Shown here: positions 16,740 through 63,665 of the stretch, piece by piece
Layout: each line of letters opens with the position of its first letter
How positions within the stretch are numbered: position 1 is the first letter of the stretch
Source: Neolewinella agarilytica
GTDB taxonomy: Bacteria; Bacteroidota; Bacteroidia; Chitinophagales; Saprospiraceae
Length of the DNA stretch: 64,000 bases
Assembly: GCF_900110645.1 (NCBI RefSeq)
Contig: NZ_FOFB01000027.1
Location: forward strand, 1 to 64,000
Direction of reading: 5' to 3'
Notes under the pieces: generated by a model
What the model saw: only the letters and a program-made list of their open reading frames with translations
Database searches by the model: none
Told to the model about the DNA's origin: nothing
Position numbers and translations under genes: made by a program

Positions 16740-17113
16740 CCCCGGATTACGTCGCGACTTCGTCGGCGACTTCATCCGGGGCTAAGGATGTTTGACTTCC
16801 CCGGATTACGCCCGAGGCTACGCCTCTTGCTTCATCCGGGGCTAAGGATGTTTGACTTCCCCGGATTACGCCCGAGGCTACGCCTCTTGCTTCATCCGGG
16901 GCCAAGGATGTTTGACTCCTTCGGAGTCGGTGGTTAGATGGCTCCCCTCTCCTCCGGACCTCCGGAGGAAGCCGCGAAACGAAAGGGGTTGGGGGAGAGG
17001 TTTTTTATGGACTTCATCCGGGGCTAAGGATGTTTGACTTCCCCGGATTACGCCCGAGGCTACGCCTCTTGCTTCATCCGGGGCCAAGGATGTTTGACTC
17101 CTTCGGAGTCGGT
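16740..17113. repeat. 60-bp tandem repeat array in the fahA-hmgA spacer
   Basis: Four units starting at about 16740, 16799, 16859 and 17041. Each runs from CCCCGGATTACG through a short variable GAGGCTACGCCTC hairpin to CTTCATCCGGGG and ends AAGGATGTTTGACT. Units 2 and 3 are directly adjacent and almost identical; unit 1 is diverged. CCCCGGAT and ATCCGGGG pair within each unit. Units 3 and 4 end with a GACTCC-TTC-GGAGTC type hairpin. Between units 3 and 4 is a 44-bp block (16944-16987) repeated inverted at 29063-29106. Small open frames here are repeat translations, not genes. Confidence 0.88.
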
Positions 17114-17118
17114 GAGTT

Positions 17119-18273: not shown

Positions 18274-18323
18274 GATGGAAATATTTGTTGCAAATGTAAT
18301 GGTTGTCGGGGCAATGTTGTTGT

Positions 18324-18440
18324 GGGGGGTAGGTTGCAAGTTGCAGGGTGCAGGTTGCAGGTTGCAGGTTGCAAGTTGCAAGTTGCAGGTTGCAGGGTGG
18401 GGAGTTGCAGGGTGCCAGGTTGCAGGTTGCGGCCGGCGAC
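18324..18440. repeat. GGTTGCA heptamer array
   Basis: About fourteen imperfect copies of a 7-bp unit (GGTTGCA, AGTTGCA, GGGTGCA) between the divergent hmgA and lipoprotein genes. A seven-base unit read in any frame gives the repeating C-N-L-Q peptides of spurious open frames here. Related arrays lie at 51514-51537, 52225-52277 and 63591-63645. Confidence 0.88.
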
Positions 18441-19728: not shown

Positions 19729-19885
19729 ACCATAGACGCCCTTTCAGGGCTGGTGAGTAGGTGGTTTTTGGATGAATAATTTGCCCTCCCGCCCGAAAAT
19801 CCCTCCTAACCTCTCCTCCTCTCTGCGCCCTCCGCGCGCAAAATCCCCGCAGCTGCGAAGCAGCCCCTCAGCAAAACTGACCGCT

Positions 19886-20048
19886 TAGGGCAAACGCATC
19901 AAATCTAAAACTGTAATCCAATAGTTGGTTTTTGTTCTGATCGAACGCAGTGAGCTGTCACTTGCGGTAGCAAATCAAGAATCAAATATCGAGAATCGCC
20001 AATCGCCAATCAAAAACGTAGCAAACGAAGTTTGATGCGTTTGCCCTT
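19886..20048. mobile_element. 163-bp MITE-like element, copy 1
   Basis: Terminal inverted repeats AGGGCAAACGCATCAAA (19887-19903) and TTTGATGCGTTTGCCCT (20031-20047) are perfect over 17 bp. Exact 10-bp direct repeats ACTGACCGCT flank it at 19876-19885 and 20049-20058, as expected for a target-site duplication. The interior has no open frame; it contains an inner arm pair (19925-19934 with 19976-19985) and a central CGCAGTGA/TCACTTGCG hairpin, so the whole element can fold into a branched rod. It ends 55 bp before the TonB receptor start. Copy 2 at 45731-45893 has the same length and about five internal differences. Confidence 0.9.
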
Positions 20049-20103
20049 ACTGACCGCTCAACTTAGTCGTACAGCAACCGCCCAATATCTTACCTTCGCC
20101 CCC

Positions 20104-22161
20104 ATGACAAAGCTCCTCGTAACCCTCCTCTGCACCTGCGTCAGCGCCTTCCTGTTTGCCCAGCAAAGCGACACCTTATTATTGTATGATATCCCGACGA
20201 CGACCGTTACCGCCTACGGTGCCAAGGCCATTGAGCCCATCGCGGCCCCGGTAAGTCGGCTGACGGAAACGGAGCTGGATCGTTACGACAATTCCTCTTT
20301 GCTCACCGGCCTCAACCGACTGCCCGGCGTTCGTTTTGAAGAGCGGGCTACGGCCAGTTACCGGATTGCGATCCGGGGCGCCTCGCTGCGGGCACCCTTT
20401 GGCGTGCGGAACACGCAGGTGTACTGGAATGGTCTTCCGTACGGAGAGCCAGGCGGCGACGTGCCCCTGAATTTTCTGGATGCAGTGAACGTGGATCAAC
20501 TCGAAGTCATCCGTGGTCCGAGCGGCGGATTTTACGGTCCGGGCACCGCTGGCACGCTGCTGCTGAATACGAAACGGCTGACGAATGAGCAGAAAAAAAC
20601 GGCCGTGGAAGCTGGCCTTGCGGCGGGGTCTTACGGCTATTTTCGCGGGGAATTGAAGCTGGAGTCTGCCAATGAATACGGCGGCTACCGCCAGTTTCGG
20701 ATCGGCTATCAACGCACGGACGGCTACCGGGATCATAGCGCGATGGAGCGGACGACGATGCAGTATTCTTCACTACTGGGTAAGAGTAAGGAGGGCAGCG
20801 AGACCCGCCTGCATGCGCTCTACACCAAGCTTGATTATGAGTTACCGGGTGGGTTGAACGCCGGGCAATATGAGGAGAATCCCCGGCAGGCGCGGCCGGG
20901 AAGCGCGGAAACGAACGCTTCCATTCACTACCATAATATGCTCATTGGCGTGACGCACAACCAGCAGCTGGGAGGCTGGCGTTCGGAATTCTCGGCCTAC
21001 GCCACGGGCTTTTATTTTGACCATCCGTTCAACTTCGATTACAAGCGGGAGGCCAACCTGGGCGGAGGAACCCGGGCAGCGTTTACCCGTGATTTTACGG
21101 ATGATTTGGCGCTCACCGCAGGTGCAGAGGCGCGCTTTCAATACCGCAATGGGCAGAACTTCGGCAACGACGCCGGGCAGCCCGCCGACCTGAATTTCTC
21201 CGACGAAATATTTTCGGAGCAAAGCCTGCTGTTCGGCCAGCTCGTGTATAAACCGGGGGCATGGGACTTCACCCTCGGCCTCAGCTCCAGTGCGCTGGAG
21301 TATACCGTCGACCGCACCTTTTCCGCCAACGGCGGAGCGGGCAAAACCAGCTTCTCCGCCAACCGCCCCCTCTCCCTGCGCCTGGCCGCCGGCCGGCAAT
21401 TGGGCAAGGGCCAATACCTCTACGCCAGCCGCGCTGACGGCTTCAGCCCGCCTACGCTCGATGAGTTCCGCACCAACGAGGGGAGCCTTAATGTGGACCT
21501 CGACCCCGAAGTAGGGACCAACTACGAAGTCGGCTACCGCTACGCGCAAGGCAAGGTCAAAGCGGAAGTCACCGCCTTCCACTTCGCCCTCGACGAAGCC
21601 ATCACCAGCTTCACTGATGAGCGCGGCACTCAGCTTTTCCGTAACGCCGGCCAGACCCGCCAGCAGGGCCTCGAAATCGGCGCGGGCTACCGAGCCCTGG
21701 ATGCTACCCAGGGACCGATGAGCCTCAACTTCTACGGCAGCTATACTTACTACAACTTCACTTACCAGGATTTTGAGCAGCGGGGCACCAACTTCAGCGG
21801 CAACAATATCCCCGGCGCCGCGCCGCATACCCTGAACCTGGAAATAAGTGCAGCGCTCACAAGCGGTCCCTACCTCAATGTCTTCCACACCTTTATGGAC
21901 GCGATCCCCCTCAACGACGCCAACGATGTTTTTGCGGAGAGCTTCCAGCTGCTTCGCCTGCAGATTGGCTTCCGGCGCGGCCGCTACGACGTCTTCCTTA
22001 CCGGGGCTAACCTGCTCGACGAGCAGATGAGCTTTGGGAACGATCTGAACCCTCAATTCGGGGGGCGGTACTTTCAGCCCGCGCCGGGGCGGAATTGGCA
22101 GGTTGGGGTGCGGTTTGTACCGCCGACTTCAGTCGGCGGGTATAAAAGATCCGCCGACTGA
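20104..22161 (+). CDS. TonB-dependent outer-membrane receptor
   Basis: 685 residues with signal peptide M-T-K-L-L-V...F-A-Q. The plug domain carries the R-I-A-I-R-G-A-S-L-R and V-I-R-G-P-S-G-G-F-Y-G segments typical of siderophore/vitamin-type receptors, followed by a 22-strand type barrel; a SusC-like N-terminal carboxypeptidase domain is absent. The barrel should end near G-V-R-F; the extra residues P-P-T-S-V-G-G-Y and onwards are encoded by the REP-like repeat, which supplies the stop codon. The start at 20104 replaces an upstream TTG inside the MITE. Two copies of the dispersed motif fall in the gene (20131-20148 in the signal peptide; 21108-21127). The next gene is a lactonase-type lipoprotein. 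Ligand unknown. Confidence 0.92.
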   Translation: MTKLLVTLLCTCVSAFLFAQQSDTLLLYDIPTTTVTAYGAKAIEPIAAPVSRLTETELDRYDNSSLLTGLNRLPGVRFEERATASYRIAIRGASLRAPFGVRNTQVYWNGLPYGEPGGDVPLNFLDAVNVDQLEVIRGPSGGFYGPGTAGTLLLNTKRLTNEQKKTAVEAGLAAGSYGYFRGELKLESANEYGGYRQFRIGYQRTDGYRDHSAMERTTMQYSSLLGKSKEGSETRLHALYTKLDYELPGGLNAGQYEENPRQARPGSAETNASIHYHNMLIGVTHNQQLGGWRSEFSAYATGFYFDHPFNFDYKREANLGGGTRAAFTRDFTDDLALTAGAEARFQYRNGQNFGNDAGQPADLNFSDEIFSEQSLLFGQLVYKPGAWDFTLGLSSSALEYTVDRTFSANGGAGKTSFSANRPLSLRLAAGRQLGKGQYLYASRADGFSPPTLDEFRTNEGSLNVDLDPEVGTNYEVGYRYAQGKVKAEVTAFHFALDEAITSFTDERGTQLFRNAGQTRQQGLEIGAGYRALDATQGPMSLNFYGSYTYYNFTYQDFEQRGTNFSGNNIPGAAPHTLNLEISAALTSGPYLNVFHTFMDAIPLNDANDVFAESFQLLRLQIGFRRGRYDVFLTGANLLDEQMSFGNDLNPQFGGRYFQPAPGRNWQVGVRFVPPTSVGGYKRSAD

Positions 22162-28674: not shown

Positions 28675-29166
28675 AGGAGCTCCAGCTCCGACCGGGCAAG
28701 AGAGCGTAGCGATTTTGCCAAGTACAGTTATGCAATTAAGCTGGCTTAGTACACTTACACGCTCCGGAAGCCTGCGGCCCCGTTCGGGGTCGGAGCTGGT
28801 GTGTATCACGAGATGCACGATTCATTAGAAAAACCTCTCCCCCGGCCCCCAGGGCTAACGCATACTCACCGGACGCTCAAAGGAACTCAGCAATTTCGCC
28901 TCCGGCTCCATGGCTGAGCACACTTCGAGGTCCTGGACTGCCAATTTAGGACCTCGAAGTGTGCATTTTCCGTAGCGGAGCGAAGGATAAAATGTTCCTT
29001 TCCCTTCGGGGCTGCTTCGCGGTGAGGGTCCGGCTTCGAGTATGCGTTAGCCCTGCCCCCGGCCCCTTTCGCTTCGCGGCTTCCTCCGGAGGTCCGGAGG
29101 AGAGGGAAGACGTCTCAGGCGGCTTGACCGTGCATTTCGTGATACACACTCGGAGCTGGAGCTCCT
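28675..29166. repeat. island of four concentric inverted repeats
   Basis: Four arm pairs are nested around one centre: 28675-28691 with 29150-29166 (17 bp, perfect); 28801-28819 with 29129-29147 (19 bp, one mismatch); 28851-28867 with 29038-29054 (17 bp, perfect); 28918-28934 with 28948-28964 (17 bp, perfect). The block at 29063-29106 is an inverted copy of 16944-16987. The island occupies nearly the whole 547-bp spacer between the P1 peptidase and the serine hydrolase; no gene is supported inside it. Confidence 0.88.
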
Positions 29167-45625: not shown

Positions 45626-45730
45626 TGGCCGTTGCCCGATTGGCCCTTACAGAAAGGCACTTTTGTGCTCCTTCAGCGCTCCGGGAGCAATAGCCTTACC
45701 CTTTAATGGCCAGACCGATTAAAAAAGCCT

Positions 45731-45893
45731 CAGGGCAAACGCATCAAATCTAAAACTGTAATCTAATAGTTGATTCTTGTTTCGATCGAACGCAGTGAGC
45801 TGTCACTTGCGGTAGCAAATCAAGAATCAAATATCGAGAATCGCCAATCGCCAATCAAAAACGTAGCAAACGAAGTTTGATGCGTTTGCCCTG
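45731..45893. mobile_element. 163-bp MITE-like element, copy 2
   Basis: Terminal repeats CAGGGCAAACGCATCAAA and TTTGATGCGTTTGCCCTG are perfect over 18 bp. Exact 10-bp direct repeats AAAAAAGCCT flank it at 45721-45730 and 45894-45903 and differ completely from those around copy 1. The inner arms TTGATTCTTG (45770-45779) and CAAGAATCAA (45821-45830) pair perfectly here. The right end is only about 9 bp from the predicted upstream element of the ATP synthase promoter. Confidence 0.92.
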
Positions 45894-45911
45894 AAAAAAG
45901 CCTTAGTGTAG

Positions 45912-45978: not shown

Positions 45979-47316
45979 ATGAAATTGCTCCTGCGCGTAA
46001 TGCTTCTGTTGGTTTTTTGCGGTGTTAACACTGCTCTTAGTGCCCAACATGATGATCATGATTCTGGAGATCATTCCAGTCACGATGGCCACGGTCATGC
46101 TACGGAAGTTCACGAAGGCTGTGCTCACGATGATTCCTACGATCCGGCCAGCGTGATCCTGCATCACATTGCGGACGCCAACTACTTCGAGATAATTCAC
46201 GGCGTCAATCTTCCCCTCCCTCTTTTCCTTTACGCTCCCGGCCACGGTCTTACGACCGGCCTGAGCAGCATGCTTGGCGACGATCACCACCTGAAAGCCG
46301 TTGATGGCTACGTGATGAACCACGGCCGCGTGAACCGCCTGGCGGACAGCGCCGGTGACGCGATGCTCAGCGGAGAATACGACGTGGAGTGTATCCTGCA
46401 CAAGACCGAGGTCAATGAAGCCGGTAAGGAGAAAGACACTTACTACGCCAAGATCAACGGTCAGGAATACCTGCTCAACGCTGCTTCCGTAGGGGACGGC
46501 GGCCTGCTCGGCGGTGGTATCACTAACTTTTACGACTTCAGCATTACGAAGAACGTCTTCACGATGTTGCTGGCTGCGCTGCTGCTGATCCTGCTCTGGA
46601 CGGCCGTTGCCCGCGGCTACAAGCGTAATGAAGGACAGGCACCCAGTGGCATTCAGTCCCTGATGGAGCCTTTCTTTGTTTTCCTGCGCGACGAGATCAG
46701 CATCCCGATGATCGGTGAAAAGCACTACGAGAAGTTTCAGCCCTTCATTCTGACGGTCTTCTTCTTTATCCTTTTCTGTAACCTCTTCGGTCTGATTCCC
46801 TTCATTCCGGGAAGCGCCAACGTAACGGGCAACATTGCGGTAACGATGGCCCTGGCCGTTATTGCTGCTATTGTGGCTTACGTACACGGCAATGCACACT
46901 TCTGGGGCCACGTACTCTGGATGCCCGGTGTACCGGTCTTCGTAAAGCCGCTGCTTACGGTAGTGGAGGTACTTGGCCTGGTCATTAAGCCATTCTCCCT
47001 GATGGTGCGTCTTTTCGCTAACATCACGGCGGGTCACATTATCATCCTGTCACTGGTCAGCCTGATCTTCATCTTCGGTAATAACGGAGAGAGCGTATTC
47101 GGAGCTGCTGCCGGTGGTGTGGTGGGCGTTGCCTTTACCCTCTTCATGAACTGTATCGAATTGCTGGTAGCATTCGTTCAACCCTTCATTTTTGCTATTC
47201 TGACGGCCAGCTACATTGGCGCAGCAGTTGAAGAGCACGAACATGAGCACGGGCATGAAGGAAGCCACGACGTAGAGTACGAAAACCTCAACGACAGTAA
47301 CCCGGCTTACGCATAA
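45979..47316 (+). CDS. atpB: ATP synthase F0 subunit a, with His-rich extensions
   Basis: 445 residues, far longer than E. coli subunit a (271). A signal peptide (1-23) and about 190 extra N-terminal residues come first, beginning with a His/Asp-rich stretch (eight His within 24-52). The core has five to six membrane segments with the essential stator arginine in F-S-L-M-V-R-L-F-A-N, which passes protons to the c ring. A second His/Glu-rich tail follows the last helix (E-H-E-H-E-H-G-H). Signal-bearing, extended AtpB proteins are usual in Bacteroidota; the His clusters are notable. Start 45979 was chosen over 45952 because it begins the signal peptide. Confidence 0.94.
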   Translation: MKLLLRVMLLLVFCGVNTALSAQHDDHDSGDHSSHDGHGHATEVHEGCAHDDSYDPASVILHHIADANYFEIIHGVNLPLPLFLYAPGHGLTTGLSSMLGDDHHLKAVDGYVMNHGRVNRLADSAGDAMLSGEYDVECILHKTEVNEAGKEKDTYYAKINGQEYLLNAASVGDGGLLGGGITNFYDFSITKNVFTMLLAALLLILLWTAVARGYKRNEGQAPSGIQSLMEPFFVFLRDEISIPMIGEKHYEKFQPFILTVFFFILFCNLFGLIPFIPGSANVTGNIAVTMALAVIAAIVAYVHGNAHFWGHVLWMPGVPVFVKPLLTVVEVLGLVIKPFSLMVRLFANITAGHIIILSLVSLIFIFGNNGESVFGAAAGGVVGVAFTLFMNCIELLVAFVQPFIFAILTASYIGAAVEEHEHEHGHEGSHDVEYENLNDSNPAYA

Positions 47317-51739: not shown

Positions 51740-52219
51740 ATGCTTTTGAGCGAACTCAAGTCCTTTCTTTCTGCCCGCGACAACTTCCTGATCCGCCTGC
51801 CGGACGGCAATGCCGTGGAGAGTCACTTCCACGTTACCGAGGTAGGGGAGGTGACGAAGCATTTCATCGACTGCGGCGGCAAAGTCCGCCGGGAGCGCGT
51901 AGCCAGCCTGCAACTGTGGAGCGCGGATGACTACAATCACCGCCTCGAGCCCGGTAAGCTGGTCAAGATCGTCGGGATCGCCGAGCGGGAGCTCGGGCTG
52001 GGAGATTTACCCATCGAGGTGGAGTACCAGGGCACGGAGACCATCCAGAAGTTTAACCTGGAAGCCGTTGACGGTGAGCTTCGTCTGCAGTCTAAGACCA
52101 CCGCCTGCCTGGCGCTGGAAGAATGCGGCTTTCCCGTCGCTGCTAAAAAAGTGGTCTCCCTGGCGGGCTCCATCTCGAAGGGCGGAGGAGCTTGTACACC
52201 GGGGGGCGGGTGTTGTTAG
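51740..52219 (+). CDS. DUF6428-type protein, Cys-rich tail
   Basis: 159 residues. The family is uncharacterised and often found next to arsR genes. Most of the protein is mixed alpha/beta (L-L-S-E-L-K-S-F-L... L-P-D-G-N-A-V-E-S-H-F-H-V-T-E-V-G). The end, G-G-A-C-T-P-G-G-G-C-C, has three cysteines in a flexible tail, with two more at T-A-C-L-A-L-E-E-C, suitable for binding arsenite or a thiophilic metal. The ATG at 51740 fits the promoter; an upstream TTG at 51716 would lie inside it. Followed by arsR after a repeat-filled 203-bp gap. Confidence 0.72.
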   Translation: MLLSELKSFLSARDNFLIRLPDGNAVESHFHVTEVGEVTKHFIDCGGKVRRERVASLQLWSADDYNHRLEPGKLVKIVGIAERELGLGDLPIEVEYQGTETIQKFNLEAVDGELRLQSKTTACLALEECGFPVAAKKVVSLAGSISKGGGACTPGGGCC

Positions 52220-52224
52220 GGGGG

Positions 52225-52422
52225 GCAGGTTGCAGGTTGGAAGTTGCAGGTTGGAAGTTGCAAGTTGCAAGTTGCAAAATAATGCCCTTTCCTTCCCTTT
52301 TCCCTTTATTCTCTCATTCTCTCATTCCCTCATTCCCTCATTCCCCCATTCTCTAATTCTCTCATTCCCTCATTCTCTCATTCCCTCATTCCCCCATTCT
52401 CTCATTCCCTCATTCCCTTCCC
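52225..52422. repeat. heptamer array followed by an octamer array upstream of arsR
   Basis: 52225-52277 is a run of GGTTGCA/AGTTGCA units. From about 52312 to 52420 an octamer CTCATTCC (with CTCATTCT, CCCATTCT, CTAATTCT variants) repeats about thirteen times and stops just before the arsR ATG. The array takes the place where a promoter or leader would be expected and contains no TAnnTTTG box. Confidence 0.85.
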
Positions 52423-52755
52423 ATGGGCGTCACCAAATCAGACATCTACACTGACCGCCAGAACCGGTTGGCCGCAATTTTCAAAGCTATCGGGCATCCT
52501 GCCCGCGTGGCAATTCTGGAGCAATTGCTTACGGCGGAGTGCTGCATCTGTCGGGATTTTACCGATGAGATTGCTTTGTCTCAGCCAACGGTTTCCCGTC
52601 ACCTGAAGGAGTTGAAGTTGGCTGGCCTCATCTCCGGAACGGTAGAAGGTACCAGTGTAAGCTACTGCATTAACCCCGAGCGTTGGGCGGAAGTGAAGGA
52701 AATTATTGACATCCTCTTTAAGGTTGAGGGGAGCCAGGGGAAATCCTGCTGCTGA
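52423..52755 (+). CDS. ArsR family winged-helix metalloregulator
   Basis: 110 residues. Winged-helix domain with recognition helix in L-S-Q-P-T-V-S-R-H-L-K-E-L-K (52-65) and wing G-T-V-E-G-T-S-V-S-Y-C. Cys40, Cys41 and Cys43 (E-C-C-I-C) lie at the start of the DNA-binding helix region, with Cys82 and a terminal Cys109-Cys110; this set suits As(III) or another thiophilic inducer. It probably represses the DUF6428 promoter. No arsenite pump or arsenate reductase is in the window. The gene shares a strand with M23 peptidase 46 bp downstream. Confidence 0.88.
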   Translation: MGVTKSDIYTDRQNRLAAIFKAIGHPARVAILEQLLTAECCICRDFTDEIALSQPTVSRHLKELKLAGLISGTVEGTSVSYCINPERWAEVKEIIDILFKVEGSQGKSCC

Positions 52756-63542: not shown

Positions 63543-63590
63543 TGATTTATATATTTGGTTCCTGGCCATCAGGCCGGGGGAGGTTTTGAT

Positions 63591-63645
63591 AGTTGCAGGT
63601 TGCAGGGTGCAAGTTTCAGGGTGCAGGTTGCAAGTTGCAGGGTGG
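63591..63645. repeat. GGTTGCA heptamer array
   Basis: About seven imperfect heptamers (GGTTGCA, GGGTGCA, AGTTGCA, with one GTTTCA) between the amidohydrolase start and the upstream gene on the same strand. Confidence 0.85.
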
Positions 63646-63665
63646 GGGGAGACTGGTTTTGCGTC

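Follow-up and report, generated by a model that had tools for sequence, protein, structure and literature searches.

Short bacterial MITEs with ends like those of insertion sequences (ISs) are the closest described systems, and our comparisons draw on portions of the published accounts. In Porphyromonas gingivalis, BrickBuilt, MITE239 and MITE464 resemble the element described here in being short and non-coding, with inverted ends that match resident IS elements, and BrickBuilt and MITE464 share its internal short repeats; however, their ends are of the IS5 family and their duplications, in the portion consulted, are varied or non-canonical, whereas here the ends are ISAs1-like and the duplications 9-10 bp (PMC4596501). 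MITEPye1 of Paracoccus yeei likewise owes its IS-family assignment to its ends and duplications, but the family is IS1182 (PMC11578231). Anabaena sp. 90 carries many MITEs as well as an ISAs1-family element, ISAsp2, and in the portion of that paper covered here its authors saw no evident similarity between the MITEs and the ends of resident ISs (PMC3542288). Very short scattered hairpin modules, as in REPINs and small dispersed repeats (PMC3116915, in part), resemble 21- and 24-bp modules found in our element, whose mobility is a candidate property only. Three MITEs of Aeromonas are reported without their families in the portion consulted of one account, and an ISAs1 MITE could be among them (PMC5756416).

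The element occurs twice in the window, the whole 64,000-nucleotide stretch of Neolewinella agarilytica DNA analysed here. It is a real, recent, multi-copy MITE with ISAs1 ends. It is a transposed, non-coding, non-autonomous element, very probably moved by an ISAs1 transposase acting in trans. A preliminary description of the window knew of no named Bacteroidota MITE with these ends. We did not meet this MITE in the literature searched either, but its kind is already known. Queries combining ISAs1 with MITE-type words returned no description of an ISAs1-derived MITE in the portions of the sources covered, and a search on Saprospiraceae yielded nothing. Our data name the family behind a MITE with 10-bp duplications in this group and show that small elements with unrelated interiors carry ISAs1-type ends in several genomes; the general understanding of MITEs is unchanged.

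Copies in the window and across the genome

Both copies lie where the preliminary description had placed them, with the same length and each between its own exact 10-bp direct repeat (Table 1). The terminal inverted repeats, earlier given as 17-18 bp, span 17 perfect bp in copy 1, with the outermost T..T unpaired, and 18 bp in copy 2. The count of about five internal differences holds for the interior (positions 34, 43, 46, 52 and 53), to which the first and last bases (1 and 163) have to be added, making 7 differences in 163 positions.

Table 1. Coordinates of the MITE copies, their flanks and neighbouring features in the window
Feature	Position	Strand	Remarks
MITE copy 1	19886..20048	+	163 bp including unpaired terminal T/T; AGGG..CCCT core of 161 bp
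Target duplication of copy 1, left: ACTGACCGCT	19876..19885	.	Exact, 10 bp
Target duplication of copy 1, right: ACTGACCGCT	20049..20058	.	Exact, 10 bp
Terminal inverted repeat of copy 1: AGGGCAAACGCATCAAA, common to ISAs1 elements	19887..19903	+	
Second terminal inverted repeat of copy 1	20031..20047	-	
Hairpin CGAACGCAGTGAGC..GCGGTAGC, resembling a repeat dispersed in congeners	19942..19971	+	
Six heptads AATCNNN, one of them TATCNNN	19973..20014	+	Site of 21-/24-bp modules in 185/206-bp copies elsewhere
TonB-dependent receptor gene, 3' of copy 1	20104..22161	+	Pfam PF00593, PF07715; ORF
Second MITE subfamily, 204-bp core, ends CAGGGCTAACGCATAC	28850..29055	+	
Flanking direct repeat of 204-bp MITE, left: CCCCCGGCCCC	28839..28849	.	
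Flanking direct repeat of 204-bp MITE, right	29056..29066	.	
MITE copy 2	45731..45893	+	163 bp
Target duplication of copy 2, left: AAAAAAGCCT	45721..45730	.	Exact, 10 bp
Target duplication of copy 2, right: AAAAAAGCCT	45894..45903	.	Exact, 10 bp
ATP synthase A chain gene (atpB), upstream region holds copy 2	45979..47316	+	Pfam PF00119, E 7.7e-53; ORF

The genome-wide search for further copies that had been proposed was run with copy 1 as query (E <= 0.001) against the own assembly (G000; 6.22 Mb in 74 contigs), and gave at least 34 matches, 40 of the 62 first-look candidates having been scored. At least 11 of them are intact AGGG..CCCT copies, namely eight of 161 bp, one of 185 bp and two of 206 bp; two others are full-length but worn (C27:229301 and C26:33266), and the rest are contig-edge halves or partial. 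A script that looks for an exact flanking repeat, tolerating one terminal base on either side, found a duplication of at least 9 bp in nine of the 11 intact copies. A tenth (L036) has a 9-bp duplication, GTCTTAAAG, lying one base further out and recognized by eye; none was found at the remaining copy (L037). Not one of 110 control pairs of mismatched left and right flanks from the same 11 copies reaches 8 bp, so the duplications are not due to chance. Apart from them the flanks of the 11 copies are mutually unrelated. The two separate insertion events first claimed for the window have thus become 11 intact copies with unrelated flanks and private duplications, and a flank shared by, or conserved over a longer stretch in, all copies, which the preliminary description had named as evidence against transposition, does not occur. 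Short, devoid of a transposase gene, bounded by terminal inverted repeats and present in multiple copies with private target duplications, the element has the properties of a MITE. Among the eight 161-bp copies, three at different places are identical, two more are one base away from these and 8 of 161 positions separate the most divergent pair; the identity of copies at separate places indicates that the element moved recently.

In the window each copy precedes a gene, with 55 bp (copy 1) and 85 bp (copy 2) to the start codon. When the empty sites of the 11 intact copies were rebuilt within the fetched loci, the longest ORFs running across them measured 534 aa (copy 1), 122 aa (L032), 98, 90, 72, 62 and 26 aa, with none in four. 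The 534-aa ORF extends the TonB-receptor frame upstream of its likely start at 20104. Not every copy need be intergenic.

Element-free sites upstream of atpB

The preliminary description had proposed to look for empty sites carrying a single copy of each 10-mer, and for copy 2 the comparison bears the prediction out. A 901-bp query was searched against 21 genomes of the genus including the own, and all 21 match it somewhere, many through the MITE interior or coding sequence only. The DNA immediately upstream of atpB is covered in six congener stretches (G007, G018, G014, G004, G005 and G015), and in an alignment the element is absent from all six. The window's right-hand AAAAAAGCCT precedes the anchor TACCTTTGCGG by 42 bp; in five of the six congeners a lone AAAAAAGCCT-like 10-mer stands at that same distance, with one mismatch in G018, G014 and G004 (AAAAAACCCT) and in G015 (AAAAAAGGCT), and with two in G007 (AAAAAACCTT). 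G005 has a three-mismatch match only. To the left of the site the species share no conserved sequence, and the empty-site comparison therefore rests on a single 10-mer. The MITE-end motif, allowing three mismatches, was not found within 400 bp upstream in five of the six; G007 has a 13-mer with three mismatches to it, 107 bp before the anchor and 65 bp from the empty site, which we take to be chance or a relic. The copy at atpB raises the question of a promoter, and TACCTTTG resembles what we take to be a Bacteroidota promoter -7 box.

Ends of the ISAs1 family and the partner transposase

The exact 18-mer CAGGGCAAACGCATCAAA occurs in at least 115 stretches of a public genome collection, against about 7 matches expected for a random 18-mer in a collection of that size by our own arithmetic. 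Record titles among the matches listed include Bacteroidota groups, Chloroflexi, cyanobacteria, Synergistaceae and others, and many of the named ones are labelled Saprospiraceae. We sorted the 115 listed stretches in a fixed order of categories: an ISAs1 transposase match lies no more than 250 bp from the motif in 10, a paired inverted end no more than 700 bp away (MITE-sized) in 28, the motif falls at an edge in 37, and the other 40 belong to none of these categories.

Full-length elements with these ends exist. A congener (G011) holds two intact ISAs1 elements (L252 and L257) with a 1151-bp core, AGGGCAAACGCATCAAA at both ends and the duplications TACTTCTCTT and GCACCGAAT, respectively; the ISAs1 family transposase model NF033564 matches L257 at 8.9e-98 and both places at 7.6e-98 in a genome search. 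Further ISAs1 elements are L246 (1185 bp, duplication ACTAATTGAC, NF033564 1.6e-117), L186 (1176 bp, NF033564 3.1e-123), L222 (1184 bp, duplication GCCTATGGCG), L121 (1162 bp, its transposase match split over frames), and L226 and L165, which have a broken or shortened reading frame. Pfam finds DDE_Tnp_1_assoc and DDE_Tnp_1 in both L186 and L257. The script detected a duplication of at least 9 bp at four of ten long ISAs1 elements (L252, L257, L246 and L222) and none at the other six (L262, L249, L253, L186, L226 and L165). Between the MITE and L252, L257 and L121, 17-20 bp match at both ends, and over all six ISAs1 elements compared the match is 15-21 bp. ISAs1 fragments also adjoin AGGGCTAACGCATAC, an end of the second, 204-bp subfamily, in G014 (L260 and L265) and G007 (L256), of which only L260 passes the model cut-off.

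Elements of the ISAs1 family reportedly duplicate 8-10 bp of target (ISfinder), a range with which the 9-10 bp of the MITE copies agrees; a literature search on the length of ISAs1 duplications yielded nothing. From these sequence comparisons we conclude that the MITE ends belong to the ISAs1 family (NCBIfam NF033564; Pfam PF13808 and PF01609). Several members share the terminal AGGGCAAACGCATCAAA, and the inverted repeats and, where seen, the 9-10-bp duplication are common to both, but the MITE has no gene and no detected sequence in common with the family inside its ends. The transposase family, which the preliminary description had left open while proposing to look for a full-length IS sharing the ends, can thus be given as ISAs1: such elements, with the same terminus and 9-10-bp duplications, are present in a congener and elsewhere.

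The partner is another matter in the genome itself. The lack of a transposase in the window, noted from the start, extends to the whole own assembly, in which NF033564 has no match; IS4_3 transposase has none there either. Yet the assembly contains 64 exact matches to AGGGCWAACGCATM, against none for the reversed pattern. At least two end motifs are present in eight of the 21 genus genomes (G000, G002, G004, G005, G009, G011, G014 and G019), and an ISAs1 match is absent from six of these eight. The bodies of multi-copy ISs are missing from the own assembly. The 11 end-motif copies read at contig edges (C20, C24, C34, C41, C48, C60, C61 and C65; C15, C33 and C40) run into two other elements and not into ISAs1, although the neighbour is reduced to four bases at C24, and so give no sign of a hidden ISAs1. 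Three own PF01609 genes were considered as partners and set aside, as no end motif occurs in the flanking stretches retrieved, at up to 4 mismatches in 15, save one 4-mismatch match in L080. Because the own assembly lacks an ISAs1 transposase match, we infer the ISAs1 partner from relatives, and the MITE appears orphaned in its own genome. For the same lack of a match, its copies are probably now immobile or reliant on a partner that was lost or not assembled. When movement occurred, a DDE-type ISAs1 transposase supplied in trans would have bound the CAGGGCAAACGCATCAAA ends, moved the element and joined it to a target cut with a stagger of 9-10 bases, the repair of which would leave the 9-10-bp duplication.

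Other accounts of how the copies arose fare less well. That they spread by recombination, or represent a conserved regulatory element with its own flanks and never transposed, would suit their place upstream of genes in the window and interior hairpins of a sort common to other dispersed repeats; unrelated flanks with private 9-10-bp duplications refute it as the origin of the copies, and the element-free orthologous sites for copy 2 also speak against it, leaving it scarcely credible. A transposase of the IS4 family (Tn5-type) as the mover is very improbable, although one congener element has almost the same ends. This element (L248 in G005, C117:73040-74934) has a 1895-bp core with AGGGCTAACGCATCA at both ends, and its 467-aa protein matches NF033590 at 3.4e-51 (174.5 bits, cut-off 160) and Tn5 transposase chains at about 1e-9 to 1e-8, with no Pfam match. 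But its ends equal AGGGCAAACGCATCA save for a T at the sixth base and diverge beyond it, the element has no exact duplication in its flanks, none of 11 other loci read by eye among 30 fetched of that family has the motif at both element ends, and the own genome has no match to that transposase. As an observation in its own right, L248 shows two transposase families, ISAs1 and Tn5-type IS4, with nearly the same termini.

Movement by ISAs1, the reading we prefer, is compatible with more than one origin of the interior. MITEs usually arise by internal deletion of an IS, and the true parent could have had unusual subterminal DNA; we nevertheless consider it rather unlikely that this MITE arose from an ISAs1 copy in that way, since only its terminal 15-21 bp match the six ISAs1 elements and no alignment extends inward from there. 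The interior instead resembles a congener repeat that lacks these ends in the stretches read: a search of the genus returned many matches to the hairpin and heptad part alone, and no MITE ends lie beside the interior-like repeat in five congener loci of 250-450 bp each (G013, G016, G010, G020 and G006). It looks like a captured dispersed hairpin and heptad repeat, enclosed by ISAs1 ends.

Hairpin modules, nested elements and a second subfamily

The longer copies differ from the 161-bp form by small modules. Those of 185 and 206 bp have a 24-bp module, CCCCGAAGGGCTCAGCGAAGCTAA, inside the heptads, and the 206-bp form has in addition a 21-bp module, GCACGAAGTACTGCGAAGCAA. With the modules removed, two of the three (L039 and L040) equal the commonest 161-bp copy and the third (L041) is one base off. 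The genome has 30 occurrences of the 19-bp core of the 21-bp module, allowing up to 3 mismatches, and 13 of the 20-bp core of the 24-bp module, each against 2 for the backward control. Five of the 30 sites of the 19-bp core belong to MITE copies, whole or cut in half by a contig edge (C20, C21, C24, C34 and C37), and several module-core loci lie in AATCNNN heptad arrays, among the 16 of 30 and 4 of 13 whose settings were printed. Two sequence backgrounds in the own genome occur both with and without modules. A module-free congener copy (G019, L378) hinted at module gain, but L379, a diverged copy in G009, contains both, and the modules may have been either gained or lost. Small dispersed repeats, very short hairpin modules scattered in genomes, are reportedly known from cyanobacteria. 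The 21- and 24-bp modules may be very small mobile units that enter or leave AATCNNN arrays, including one inside a MITE with ISAs1 ends, and then serve as the target of an unrelated site-specific IS. Such a nesting of three mobile layers is a speculative reading that we regard as unlikely.

The 19-bp hairpin GCACGAAGTACTGCGMAGC, is found about 30 times in G000 (L291-L320). The 16 loci printed show it in no fewer than three contexts: AATCNNN heptads, a GCGGCCAGCTCAGA..AAAAAGTTTAAACGGGTTC repeat (four loci) and ATCCCGA..TAATTTTGACCCG (two loci).

In several MITE copies the 24-bp module is interrupted at one and the same point, after GCGAAG, by an unrelated IS, here IS-A. Read by eye, paired contig edges have a duplication in common across it: GCTACTGCC for C61/C20, CCTCTTCTC for C48/C24 and 8 of 9 bases for C65/C34. 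IS-A also follows AGCAGCGAAG at C49 and C22, and its other end is at C69. The contig-edge copies at C20, C24, C34, C48, C60, C61, C65 and C41 were considered as ends of a parent element and rejected, as the inner IS-A occurs without MITE ends at C49, C69, C22 and in the congener G005. IS-A is thus a different IS nested in the MITE and not its parent. Its body is absent from the assembly, and searches did not find its family. IS-A loci comprise contig edges of G000 (L001/L045, L042, L020, L023, L044, L011, L004 and L087), L081, L082 and L083, and L068 in G005. C49 and C69 look like two parts of a single gene, presumably SdpI-like, interrupted by IS-A. A further candidate parent, IS-B (C15, C40 and C33; L086, L085 and L097 of G000), proved on reading to be a second element, nested in the 204-bp MITE. 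For annotators, the MITE helps explain repeats and some assembly breaks in this genome.

The 204-bp subfamily is represented by eight intact copies read in the genome, seven of 204 bp and one of 210 bp; others in which one end is altered or lost (C24:204716, C27:587962 and C34:253496) were not counted. By script, six of the eight have an exact duplication of at least 11 bp. Five of the eight, however, have one type of G+C-rich flank in common (GGGGCCGGGGG), which makes their repeats weaker evidence. The shared flank suggests that GGGGCCGGGGG-type sequence is a preferred target of the 204-bp MITE that is itself repeated.

Related genomes hold other MITE families with ISAs1-type ends and unrelated interiors (L364-L370 in G023, L376-L377 in G002 and L375 in G014). 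The window has short tandem or dispersed repeats besides (16770-17114, 18301-18409, 52197-52442 and 63574-63655), among them a 103-bp repeat in three copies, GTTGCAG heptads and an array of the 8-bp unit ATTCCCTC.
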